This document shows, one piece after another, positions 35,691 to 42,699 of a stretch of 64,000 nt of DNA. How positions within the stretch are numbered: position 1 is the first letter of the stretch; the number at the start of each line of letters is the position of its first letter. Where the stretch lies: assembly GCF_000428765.1 (NCBI RefSeq), contig NZ_KE386797.1, forward strand, positions 109,449-173,448, read 5' to 3'. Both the position numbers and the translations under genes were made by a program. The notes beneath the pieces are model-generated. The model did not search any database. It worked only from the letters and a program-made list of their open reading frames with translations, and was not told the origin of the DNA. This stretch comes from Brevundimonas aveniformis DSM 17977. GTDB lineage: Bacteria > Pseudomonadota > Alphaproteobacteria > Caulobacterales > Caulobacteraceae.

Positions 35691-35715
35691 CCCTTCCCCC
35701 ACAGGGGGAGAAGGG
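35691..35715. repeat. Short palindromic intergenic repeat
   Basis: CCCTTCCCCC-ACA-GGGGGAGAAGGG forms a near-perfect hairpin just after purT. It matches the outer part of the 59-bp repeats that flank the DUF559 gene (CTTCTCCC...GGGAGAAGG) and a similar hairpin at 38857-38877 after the histidine kinase gene. It may serve as a transcript end. Confidence 0.6.
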
Positions 35716-38856: not shown

Positions 38857-38877
38857 CCCTCTCCCGTGGGGAGAAGG
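38857..38877. repeat. Short palindromic intergenic repeat
   Basis: CCCTCTCCC-GT-GGGGAGAAGG makes a strong hairpin 2 bp after the histidine kinase stop. It is related to the hairpins at 35691-35715 and in the DUF559 flanks. A TTGACC at 38925-38930 with GATACC 17 bp further on is a possible gap promoter, but weak. Confidence 0.5.
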
Positions 38878-40034: not shown

Positions 40035-40462
40035 TGCTGCCCCGCCTCAGCCCGGTCGGTGAACGTGTCCTTGAGGGCATCATCCTCGCCATGGCCGGGC
40101 TGATGGCGAGCGCGGGCGTGACGTTTGGATGCGCAGTCCGAAACATTGTCGCCGAGCCGGCGGTATTCTTCGCGCAACTCGACGTCTTTGGGGCGGACAG
40201 GGACGCAGCCGTCCGGAATCTTCCCGAGGTCGTCGGCGGGGAGTCCCACGGCATTTTGATGGGGCAAGACCTCGCGAGCCTGAGCTTCACCATCATACCA
40301 GCCGTGTTGATGCTCATCTGGCTCTGGGCTGCCTTCCGCTTCGCCCGAGCTCGGCCCCGCTCCCCGACAACATGGATCATGGTTCTCCTGATGGTGTCGG
40401 CCTTCGTTACGTTCTCAGTGGCGAACTGGCAAATGGCCTATCCCGTGTGCAATCCGGTCTAG
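40034..40462 (+). CDS. Small membrane protein of unknown function
   Basis: The 142-residue protein starts at the TGATG junction with gap. Three hydrophobic segments are seen: GIILAMAGLMASAGVTFGC (about 16-34), IIPAVLMLIWLWAAF (about 88-103) and WIMVLLMVSAFVTFSVANW (about 112-130), with a soluble loop in between. No family is recognised. Direct linkage to gap may mean that the pair are simply co-transcribed. The frame is maintained with no competing gene. Confidence 0.6.
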
Positions 40463-40466
40463 TCTT

Positions 40467-40525
40467 CCTTCTCCCCTTGCGGGAGAAGGTGGGCCGCGAA
40501 GCGGGTCGGATGAGGGGTCGCGCCG
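40467..40525. repeat. Left 59-bp inverted repeat of the DUF559 cassette
   Basis: The repeat begins with the hairpin CTTCTCCC...GGGAGAAGG and ends with GGATGAGGGGTCGCGCCG. Its reverse complement matches 40875-40933 at about 49 of 59 positions, including the last 19 bp exactly. It ends 2 bp before the stop codon of the DUF559 gene. Confidence 0.85.
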
Positions 40526-40527
40526 CC

Positions 40528-40890
40528 CTATCCGCCGTTCGGACCCACCGCCTCCACAATCGCCCCGACGACCTCCCAGTCCCGCAGTTCGATCTGCTGG
40601 TTTTCGAACCTCAAGACGCGAAACCCCTGCGACTTGAGCCAACCGTCCCTAACGGCGTCCCGCTCCGCGTCATGAAACGGCCCGTCCGCTTCGACGATCA
40701 GGCGATGTCGCATGCAGACGAAATCCGCGACATAAGCCCCAATGACAACCTGCCGGCGGAACTTCAGGCCCTCCAGCCGCCGATCTCGCAGGATCGCCCC
40801 GAGCTTCCGCTCCGTCGTTGTCGACTGACGACGCATGCGCTTTGCCAGCTTTTGCAAGCGATCTTCGGACACGTCGGCGCGACCCCTCAT
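40528..40890 (-). CDS. DUF559 / VSR-fold endonuclease
   Basis: The 120-residue protein has the DUF559 pattern: basic N-terminus (LQKLAKRMRRQSTTTERKL), KFRRQVVIGAYVADFVC (Asp56) and HRLIVEADGPFHD (Glu68, Asp69, His73), which match the VSR/very-short-patch repair-like nuclease core. The first codons MRGRADV are encoded by the right inverted repeat, and the stop codon falls 2 bp from the left repeat. DNA cleavage activity is inferred from the fold and is not established for most DUF559 members. Confidence 0.85.
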   Translation of the reverse strand: MRGRADVSEDRLQKLAKRMRRQSTTTERKLGAILRDRRLEGLKFRRQVVIGAYVADFVCMRHRLIVEADGPFHDAERDAVRDGWLKSQGFRVLRFENQQIELRDWEVVGAIVEAVGPNGG

Positions 40891-40933
40891 CCGTCAGGCT
40901 TCGGCTGCCACCTGCTCCCGCAGCGGGAGAAGG
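40875..40933. repeat. Right 59-bp inverted repeat, supplies the DUF559 start codon
   Basis: This is the inverted partner of 40467-40525 (about 83% identity). The ATG of the DUF559 gene (40888-40890 on the minus strand) lies in the perfectly conserved end GGATGAGGGGTCGCGCCG, so any gene placed between such repeats would gain a start codon from them. Confidence 0.85.
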
Positions 40934-41001
40934 ATCAACCGCGGCTTGGCGAACGTCGCTCCGACGGGCACACTGCCCTCAGGTAACCGGGGGGAACCGC
41001 C

Positions 41002-42699
41002 ATGCGCCTGACCATGACTGCCGTCGCTGCTATCGCGATGGCCGCAGCGGCCCCGGCCGTGGCCGACGCGACCGTCGAAGGCTCCCTGATGGACCTCATC
41101 GACAACCCGGTCATCTGCGCCTCGCCGGACGAGGCGGCGGACATCGCCGGCGCCCCCGTCGCCGAAATGGTCATGGTCGAGGGCTTCGGCACGGGCGGCT
41201 TTGCAGTCGACACCACCAACCCGCAAGCCCAGGCGTGGTTCAATCACGGCGTCCGTCTGCGCTGGGCCTTCGAGCACACCGAGTCGGTCCGGGCGTTTCA
41301 GCGGGCGCGTCTTCTGGACCCGTCGTGCGGCATGTGCGCCTGGGGCGAGGCCTGGGCCATGGGGCCGAACCTGAACGGTGGCGGGACCGGCGAGGACACC
41401 CGCCGCGCCGCCCTTCGCATCGCGCGTGAGGCCCGCAGGATGGCCCGCGACGCCGACCCGATCCAGCGGCAAATGATCGACGCCCTGATCCAGCGCTATT
41501 CGGGATGGGAGAGCAGCCGGGCCCGGCGCTTCGCCGAGCGCATGGACCGCATCGCCCGTGACAATCCGGCTGATGTTGCCATCGCCAACATCACGGCCGA
41601 CGCCTTGATGATGCAGGTCGAGCAATGGTGGGACGACGAGGGCCAGGCCACCGATCCGGCGATCACCCGAGCCATGCAGATCCTCGAGGGCACGCTGGCC
41701 CACACGCCCGATGACCCGGGTGCCATCCACCTCTACATCCACCTAACGGAATGGTCCGATGACCCGCAAAGCGCCATTCCCTACGGCGAGCGGCTGGCCG
41801 CCCTGGCACCCGGTGCCAGCCATCTGGTGCACATGCCGTCGCACACCTTCTTCCGGGTCGGGCGCTACCGGGACGCCATGATGTCCAACGTCAACGCCGT
41901 GGCGCTGGATGCCCGCTACGTCGACCTGGCGTCGCCGCCCGGCGGCATTCGCGGTGTGCGTCTGCACGGCCACAACATCCATTTCGGCATGGGCGGGGCC
42001 CTGATGGCCGGCGGGGCGGACGAAGGCCTGCGGCTGGCGGAGCGGTTCCTCAGCATCTACACGCGCCATCCGCGAACCGACGTCGCCTGGGGCCAGGCGA
42101 CGGCCAACAACGCCTACGCCCTTTTCGGTCGCTACGGCTCGGACGAGCAGATCGCGGCCCTGGCTGAACCGCCCGAGAACCGGCCCCTGATGCGGATCGG
42201 CTGGCGCTATGGCCGGGGCGAAGCCGCCGCCCGACGCGGCGATGCCGAGGCGGTGGACCGCGAAGCCGCCGAAATCGCTCGTCTGCGCGCGGCCCTGCCT
42301 CAGAACGCCGATCACACCTTCTCGAGCACCTTCAGCGAGGTCTTCCAGAAGGTGCTGGAGGGCCGCGCCGCCATGATCAGGGGCGACTACCCGGCTGCGA
42401 TCGCGGCCTATGGCCGCGCCGCCGCCCTCCAGGGCGAAGGCGAGGAAGGCGGCGATCCGCCGATCATCTGGTTCCCGACCCGGCGAAGCCTGGCCGCGGC
42501 GCTCCTGGCCTCCGGCGATGCCGCAGGCGCGCGTGACAAGGTTCTCGAACTTCTCGAGGACTGGCCCAGCGATCCCTACAGCTACTTCGTCCTGGCCGAG
42601 GCCTATGCGGCCCTCGGCGAGCAAGAGGCGGCGGCTCGCGCCCGCGCCGCCGGGAGCGTGGAATGGATCGGCGGGACCATGTCGCTCGGCCTGGCGTGA
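41002..42699 (+). CDS. Exported tetratricopeptide-repeat protein
   Basis: The 565-residue protein has a signal peptide (MRLTMTAVAAIAMAAAAPAVA) and a helical repeat structure. The segment AQAWFNHGVRLRWAFEHTES followed by VRAFQRARLLDPSCGMCAWG, and later PGAIHLYIHLTEWSDDPQSA, are typical of a family of secreted TPR-like proteins in Caulobacterales and Sphingomonadales. C-terminal repeats around residues 480-545 (AAALLASGDAAGARDKVLEL) are clearer TPRs. GGGGGG precedes the ATG at 41002. Function unknown; periplasmic scaffold is the best guess. Expressed from its own promoter after the DUF559 cassette. Confidence 0.82.
   Translation: MRLTMTAVAAIAMAAAAPAVADATVEGSLMDLIDNPVICASPDEAADIAGAPVAEMVMVEGFGTGGFAVDTTNPQAQAWFNHGVRLRWAFEHTESVRAFQRARLLDPSCGMCAWGEAWAMGPNLNGGGTGEDTRRAALRIAREARRMARDADPIQRQMIDALIQRYSGWESSRARRFAERMDRIARDNPADVAIANITADALMMQVEQWWDDEGQATDPAITRAMQILEGTLAHTPDDPGAIHLYIHLTEWSDDPQSAIPYGERLAALAPGASHLVHMPSHTFFRVGRYRDAMMSNVNAVALDARYVDLASPPGGIRGVRLHGHNIHFGMGGALMAGGADEGLRLAERFLSIYTRHPRTDVAWGQATANNAYALFGRYGSDEQIAALAEPPENRPLMRIGWRYGRGEAAARRGDAEAVDREAAEIARLRAALPQNADHTFSSTFSEVFQKVLEGRAAMIRGDYPAAIAAYGRAAALQGEGEEGGDPPIIWFPTRRSLAAALLASGDAAGARDKVLELLEDWPSDPYSYFVLAEAYAALGEQEAAARARAAGSVEWIGGTMSLGLA

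Follow-up and report, generated by a model that had tools for sequence, protein, structure and literature searches.

A DUF559 nuclease gene between inverted hairpin-rich arms in Brevundimonas aveniformis: a candidate for a family of very small mobile elements

The origin of palindromic repeats in bacterial genomes is still an open question beyond those repeats that are linked to RAYT enzymes. In Alphaproteobacteria, CGTC repeats predominate and apparently have no dedicated transposase (Di Nocera 2013, PMC3733652). A nuclease gene that recurs inside matched copies of another alphaproteobacterial repeat group would be a concrete and testable candidate for a repeat-spreading enzyme. Such a gene lies in a 64,000-nucleotide stretch of the genome of Brevundimonas aveniformis DSM 17977 (hereafter the window, meaning the whole stretch that was analysed), in which an initial annotation had described a single DUF559 gene filling the space between two inverted 59-bp repeats and had compared the unit with a REP/RAYT system built on a VSR-fold nuclease. 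The question raised by this locus is whether gene and repeats move together, and whether the nuclease might explain how such repeats spread.

The described architecture is real (Table 1). The arms of the cassette (40467-40525 and 40875-40933) are identical at 49 of 59 positions (83%), their gene-proximal 19 bp are perfectly matched as had been claimed (19/19, CGGATGAGGGGTCGCGCCG), and the match runs on, more weakly, to 76 nt (60/76). From outside to inside, each arm consists of a 23-bp hairpin (hp1), a linker that contains another hairpin (hp2), and a GGATGAGGGG tail. The inverted-repeat score of this locus was 74, compared with a maximum of 29 among 122 displaced windows of the same geometry at DUF559 loci. 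The stop codon (TAG, 40528-40530) is 2 bp away from the 59-bp left arm, as described, and falls within the arm if the 76-nt version is taken. The statement that the right repeat supplies the ATG and the first seven codons held in part: the ATG is located within the right tail, but the 59-bp arm spans five full codons. The ATG is a putative start, because translation could also begin at a GTG at codon 7, which has GAGGGG upstream of it. A repeat-given ATG is a subfamily trait, since most other flanked loci have their start codon outside the arm. Both solo hairpins reported elsewhere in the window (35691-35715 and 38857-38877) are present but imperfect (10/12 and 8/10 pairs, respectively). When folded as ssDNA, the left arm forms both hairpins, but with a z score of only -1.84, the right arm folds no better than shuffled sequences (z -0.41), and the arms of three other loci gave z scores of -4.82, -2.04, and -2.45. 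An Rfam search of 40300-41100 gave no match, and no intron, intein, or methyltransferase gene was seen beside the DUF559 gene in the stretch read. DUF559 C-termini (e.g., in L022, L031, L039, and L063) often resemble translated repeat because the stop codon is inside or near the downstream arm.

Table 1. Positions of the parts of the cassette in the window and the basis on which each was assigned
Feature	Position	Strand	Basis
Left outer hairpin hp1	40467..40489		Palindrome with 9/11 pairs; ssDNA fold; in related elements, homology stops at the outer edge of the hairpin
Left linker and second hairpin hp2, reading inward	40490..40506	+	ssDNA fold; hp2 stem covaries (119 distinct segments)
Left gene-proximal tail CGGATGAGGGGTCGCGCCG, identical to right tail	40507..40525	+	Arm alignment
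DUF559 Vsr-fold (PD-(D/E)XK-type) nuclease, 120 aa	40528..40890	-	Pfam PF04480, E 8.5e-36; AlphaFold2 pLDDT 91; best solved matches 3hrl, I-Bth0305I, Vsr
ATG start codon from right tail (alternative: GTG 40870-40872)	40888..40890	-	Sequence
Right gene-proximal tail, overlapping codons 1-5	40875..40893	-	Arm alignment
Right linker and second hairpin	40894..40910	-	Arm alignment
Right outer hairpin hp1	40911..40933		Palindrome with 10/11 pairs
Whole unit	40466..40934		Relative G438 lacks the cassette here and has a single hairpin

Both profile and fold place the encoded protein among the DUF559/Vsr-like nucleases. Its predicted structure matched NGO0050 (3hrl, Z 15.0), I-Bth0305I (3r3p, Z 12.7), and Vsr (1cw0, Z 10.1), and the match to 3r3p (rmsd 2.3 over 92 residues) shows the catalytic-domain fold of EDxHD homing endonucleases. 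An alignment of 28 sequences has 13 invariant columns, including D56, E67, D69, and H73, which we take to be catalytic residues. Ratios of dN/dS were between 0.07 and 0.19 in 10 of 11 cassette pairs (the eleventh was saturated and gave no ratio) and between 0.10 and 0.19 in the five pairs that passed the strict filter described below; judging from these ratios, the protein is under selection. A phage or defence origin was considered and rejected: PADLOC and PHROGs gave no match at E 0.01, and tblastn matches were found in 3 of 50,697 phage records. VsrA of C. crescentus, a DUF559 protein with a role in DNA damage biology, has been proposed to serve as a nuclease in mismatch repair (PMC12907096). 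YcjD is among the known PD-(D/E)XK members (PMC1189080), an assignment to the EDxHD homing family exists for one DUF559 gene (PMC9403480), a list of DNA repair genes includes a DUF559 gene of Deinococcus (PMC6712171), and EDxHD/Vsr-like domains are present in phage group II introns (PMC12350094).

The generality of this arrangement was assessed by an arm score, i.e., the best inverted alignment between approximately 235 nt on each side of a DUF559 match, and loci with a score of 40 or more were considered flanked. In Caulobacteraceae, 47 of 72 DUF559 loci were flanked compared with 5 of 385 other genes (Fisher p 8e-40), the latter being taken from 40 longer stretches and the window; the first 32 DUF559 loci alone gave 22 flanked cases versus none in 122 displaced windows. 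Among loci from named genomes, the corresponding numbers were 62 of 80 (7 of these 80 repeat loci of the Caulobacteraceae set) and 4 of 362, and when the two control-bearing sets were combined, 104 of 145 distinct DUF559 loci were flanked versus 9 of 747 other genes. Samples without control genes gave 15 of 28 loci for the class (L099, which is the same as L039, was left out) and 14 of 26 for the phylum (8 of 12 outside Alphaproteobacteria), and all samples merged gave 133 of 199 distinct loci, with L003 counted separately from its tandem neighbour L002. Hairpins on both sides were found at 45 of 72 DUF559 loci versus 8 of 277 control genes. The expectation that matched repeats should also surround DUF559 genes elsewhere is therefore largely borne out, as most DUF559 genes examined and few other genes have them. 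DUF559 genes without such flanks, which had been named as possible counterevidence, do exist (25 of 72 and 18 of 80 loci, about a third), but the majority have matched arms; repeats around unrelated genes, the other counterevidence named, were scored in the sampled DNA at the nine control genes mentioned above, five of which are located less than 200 nt from a DUF559 match and share its repeats. In the family sample, 72 of 274 DUF559 matches from 99 genomes were examined (the best matches plus 40 selected from those listed, all strong except L003), and because the loci examined are strong matches, the overall flanked fraction may be lower. The association of DUF559 genes with matched inverted arms is strongly supported.

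DUF559 matches were detected in 76 of the 99 family genomes (up to 11 copies per genome), in 43 of 115 genomes of the class sample, and in 68 of 200 genomes of the phylum sample, where many weak matches are fragments or stretches within large frames. Flanked loci follow a common plan with very different sequences (CCTTCTCCC...GGATGAGGG, CCCTCTCTC...GGGTGAGAGG, CTCCCCC...GGTGGAGGGGG, and others), and arms outside Caulobacteraceae are often shorter, with one hairpin and a tail. The median element length is 525 bp (range 435-740, 102 elements); G395, possibly a Mesorhizobium genome, contains a 568-bp unit whose 101-bp arms differ at one position. For further copies, ten regions were fetched and nine tested, leaving out L379, in which DUF559 lies within a long protein. 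Matched inverted arms were found in four of them, namely S. meliloti (near-perfect 114-bp arms), Deinococcus, A. lipoferum, and Sphingomonas (between sufB and sufC). The copies of E. coli (ycjD), K. pneumoniae, P. aeruginosa, N. gonorrhoeae, and Synechocystis failed the matched-inverted-arm test, with palindromic repeats being present downstream in E. coli and K. pneumoniae, and such copies may be settled or decayed forms.

Several loci show other arrangements. By eye, the N. gonorrhoeae gene (L374) is flanked by two copies of a roughly 120-bp hairpin repeat in direct rather than inverted orientation. In a Brevundimonas group (L029, L150, L152, L158, and L159, of which L029 and L159 are one locus), the arms are reversed, with tails pointing outward and hairpins adjoining the gene. 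A perfect 119-bp inverted repeat in Thiobacillus (L174) may be an assembly effect. The genome of the window also has a tandem DUF559 pair (C2:13640-14605, L002 and L003), in which one gene has a repeat of another type at its borders (score 34) and its neighbour has no bordering repeat (score 22).

Where a genome has at least two flanked genes, an arm paired best with the downstream arm of its own gene in 23 of 26 cases, and 15 of 38 mismatched arm pairs in such genomes still scored 40 or more; across all flanked Caulobacteraceae loci, the own arm ranked first in 26 of 47. Arm similarity tracks protein similarity (Mantel r 0.41, p 0.001), a correlation that is partly plain homology because the compared stretch takes in some promoter DNA. 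Similar proteins from different genomes have similar arms (median score 96, n=41), and dissimilar proteins within one genome have dissimilar arms (median score 20, n=12). By these comparisons, arm types sort with the nuclease more than with the genome. The hp2 stem varies freely in sequence while its pairing is kept (119 distinct segments): the mean longest stem is 5.06 versus 3.00 in shuffled segments, and 88 of the 119 have five or more consecutive pairs. Among the 41 segments of the 16-nt class, pairs 3-13 and 4-12 occur as 4 and 3 Watson-Crick types, respectively, with 90-93% pairing, a covariation that is not a count of independent events since the segments share descent.

If gene and arms move as a unit, cassettes at unrelated sites should share homology that ends at the arms. 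An unfiltered comparison gave 45 such confined pairs, with the downstream homology edge agreeing in only 10 of 26 pairs. A strict filter, which removes seven repeated loci, contig-end cases (e.g., L194/L196), pairs with shared flanks, and gene-only homology, left 13 pairs with homology into both sides (18 when homology short of an arm is included); in this recount, 49 pairs had shared flanks, 14 were skipped as contig-end cases, and five fell short of an arm. Both members have arms in 10 of the 13, and in all 10 the ends of homology deviate from the outer arm edges by no more than 6 nt on either side. These sharp-edged pairs represent seven loci of one genus (L016, L017, L019, L020, L062, L065, and L066), the window's unit not being among them, and one pair (L017/L066, 87% identical) is found within a single genome. 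The locus with the best match to the window's protein (L134; 81% over 393 nt) has no flanks in common with the window. Neighbouring genes were not used as a control here because they would be biased, the loci having been chosen for DUF559.

Empty sites in relatives, for which the initial annotation had proposed to look, were found both at the window's site and elsewhere. In G438, the same neighbours enclose a single hp1 hairpin instead of the cassette, which may be the scar of recombination between two hairpins. Flanks that lie close together without the unit were also observed for L046 versus L138, L034 versus L056, L195 versus L260 and L273, and L113 versus L308, L309, and L318, and candidates without a clear junction (including L011, L192, L207, L179, and L200) were left out of this count. 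The cleanest empty site, L046/L138, has neither a hairpin nor a target duplication. The hairpin left in G438 suggested that the outer hairpin might be a duplicated target, but this does not apply generally, as the L046/L138 site is hairpin-free. No target-site duplication could be detected in aggregate (longest flank repeat 3.03 nt versus 3.02 nt in mismatched flanks, 102 elements). At L113, an 8-bp direct repeat lies beside the ends, which is probably due to chance or an exception.

In E. coli, ycjD is present in 3365 of 5426 genomes and its sapF flank in 5372. Four sapF regions contain ycjD in three cases and an efflux operon in one (strain 131), and the region was rejected as a clean empty site because the efflux operon is there instead of ycjD. 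Among the individual loci (L385 and L389), strain 131 has efflux genes replacing ycjD behind sapF, and ycjD of ETEC6 is split by IS1. For the S. meliloti unit with 114-bp arms, no empty site was found among the plasmid-collection matches listed; the sizes of three records in that collection (NZ_CP119142.1, NZ_OL790696.1, and CP090106.1) suggest whole chromosomes. Taken as comparative sequence evidence, the sharp edges in one genus and the empty sites in several lineages support mobility as a unit.

Forms without the gene were also observed. Behind gap, where the window's cassette is located, DUF559 was detected in 9 of 70 Brevundimonas genomes (the window's included), and six genomes without a DUF559 match (G441, G058, G083, G426, G452, and G454) have hairpins with tail motifs arranged as inverted pairs, in a survey with two DUF559 probes and one hairpin pattern that may miss divergent forms. 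Only 9-11 bp separate gap and pgk in five Brevundimonas genomes. Across Brevundimonas, this region (40035-41001 in the window, and its orthologues) is highly variable and may hold a DUF559 cassette, a pair without the gene, small genes of unrelated kinds, or next to nothing. Because G452 keeps the stretch that follows the gene in G435 and G097, its gene-less pair looks like, and probably is, an internal deletion of a gene-bearing form. Gene-less inverted pairs with the same kinds of ends thus exist, and at one site they probably arose by deletion. In the window's genome, two inverted hairpin pairs about 137 bp apart were observed (C1:813484-813644 and C4:51428-51586); the first was read and has no DUF559 gene, and the second is known as listed hairpins only.

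A repeat of the type GGGAGAAGGTG...CGGATGAGGG was present in 51 of the 99 family genomes, with up to 108 copies per genome (copies beside genes included), and a reversed control gave none. The window's genome has seven repeats of this type and seven perfect hairpins, and the 40 places listed for G003 comprise 19 inverted pairs 100-106 bp apart and two singles. The number of repeats is correlated with that of DUF559 genes (Spearman 0.63, n=99), as the initial annotation would predict, but mostly between genera; within genera the link is not significant (permutation p=0.10), implying that shared history may explain part of the correlation. Among 33 genomes with 10 or more repeats, 32 have DUF559 and 26 lack PF01797, the RAYT-type gene. 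Four genomes have repeats but no DUF559, and one of these, G081, has 35 repeats. A RAYT as the mobiliser is not supported: no PF01797 gene was found in the window's genome, such genes occur in 13 of the 99 family genomes versus repeats in 51, and their number shows no significant correlation with that of the repeats (Spearman 0.16, 99 genomes).

Other explanations of these observations should be weighed. It is conceivable that REPIN-like dimers move by some other route and that a DUF559 homing-type endonuclease cuts the repeats and is copied into them, which would agree with a homing endonuclease being among the closest solved folds, with gene-less dimers or gene-bearing cassettes of the same hairpin types occupying the gap-pgk region, and with the one hairpin retained in G438. 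However, the hairpin-free empty site L046/L138 implies that the whole unit can occupy repeat-free DNA, and arm type tracks the nuclease more than the genome; we consider such a homing parasite unlikely. The element might instead be moved by another enzyme (a RAYT, another transposase, or host replication), with DUF559 as beneficial cargo such as a Vsr-like repair nuclease. While the activity of C. crescentus VsrA in DNA damage biology (PMC12907096) and the persistence of some armless DUF559 genes, e.g., E. coli ycjD, would suit a passenger, the rarity of flanked genes other than DUF559 in the sampled DNA, more than half of them close to a DUF559 match, and the scarcity of PF01797 relative to the repeats argue against it, and we regard this possibility as quite unlikely.

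A further reading, in which an ordinary nuclease gene of the host simply lies next to hairpins of a terminator-like or RNA-processing kind and neither is mobile, is already strained by the sharp homology edges at arms in unrelated sites, the empty sites, the specificity of ends for their gene, and the excess of two-sided hairpins at DUF559 loci over control genes. The repeats are largely intergenic and could act as RNA hairpins, and about a third of DUF559 genes lack matched arms, both of which speak for this reading; nevertheless, it appears very improbable to us.

We favour, as a rather probable explanation, that this cassette represents a widespread family of tiny mobile elements, which have two inverted hairpin-rich ends and a Vsr-fold DUF559 nuclease as their sole gene and from which REPIN-like dimers are derived. 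The likeness to a REP/RAYT unit suggested by the initial annotation is supported by the matched arms, the empty sites, and the repeat number tracking the DUF559 number, and it is reasonably likely, by analogy, that the unit functions like a REP/RAYT system with an unrelated enzyme. The suggestion that the nuclease explains the spread of the repeats stands in part: repeat number tracks DUF559 and not PF01797, but that the nuclease catalyses the spreading is something we infer, and its role as the driver of movement seems fairly probable. The DUF559 nuclease would recognize the folded ends by structure more than by sequence, as suggested by the second stem, which changes freely while staying paired. 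It might then cleave the DNA at the outer hairpin or close to it, probably in a cruciform or single-stranded state, after which host repair or replication would complete the move without leaving a target duplication; gene-less REPIN-like pairs would be non-autonomous derivatives mobilised in trans. The reversed arm direction in the L150/L152/L158/L159 group runs counter to the mobile-element reading. A more far-reaching possibility is that DUF559 proteins represent a new class of transposition enzymes, each a single protein of Vsr fold (PD-(D/E)XK type), that recognize folded hairpin ends and spread an element of about 525 bp together with REPIN-like dimers, being the source of a large palindromic repeat group in Alphaproteobacteria and beyond; this is offered tentatively, its chances being slightly below even.

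If this is true, the unit would be a mobile element that has a repair-type nuclease as its only cargo and no known transposase or recombinase, and "stray" Vsr-like DUF559 genes (such as vsrA of Caulobacter and ycjD of E. coli) would be mobile-element genes or their descendants. It may also represent a new source of the short palindromic repeats that are common in bacterial genomes. No published link of DUF559 to flanking palindromic repeats was found in titles and abstracts of the open-licence literature, and to our knowledge no mobile-element family is known with a DUF559-type nuclease as its only gene.

RIME repeats of Rhizobium and Box C repeats of E. coli are possible relatives of the repeats described here. 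CGTC-tagged REPs are likewise alphaproteobacterial palindromic repeats that often form inverted dimers and for which a dedicated transposase has not been found (PMC3733652). Identity with them was rejected, as a scan for two CGTC-type motifs within 400 nt gave matches at only 2 of 206 DUF559 loci, the window's not among them; the present repeats form a group apart, and they do not directly answer the question of what mobilises the CGTC repeats, which that paper left open. The unit resembles MITEs and IS elements in its terminal inverted repeats, which bound the mobile segment in 10 of 10 filtered armed pairs (seven loci, one genus), in its occurrence at unrelated sites, and in a probable internal-deletion derivative, whereas it differs in having DUF559 as its sole gene, in lacking a known recombinase, and in showing no detectable target-site duplication across 102 elements. 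With Vsr and the EDxHD homing endonucleases (1cw0; 3r3p, I-Bth0305I), it shares the fold and the invariant acidic and His residues, but its gene is bounded by hairpin repeats. The closest parallel in layout is with REP/REPIN-RAYT systems (TnpA-REP; GTAG REPs), in which one small gene also lies between inverted palindromic repeats, gene-less inverted dimers are numerous, and repeats are intergenic and partly overlap gene ends. Inverted palindromic flanks and gene-less inverted dimers, both features of a REP-RAYT unit (REPtron), are present here, while the gene is a PF04480 nuclease of Vsr fold rather than a Y1/HUH transposase of PF01797. In further contrast to those systems, the best-described ends consist of two hairpins and a GGxTGAGGG-type tail, and a genome may carry several copies, with up to 11 DUF559 genes.
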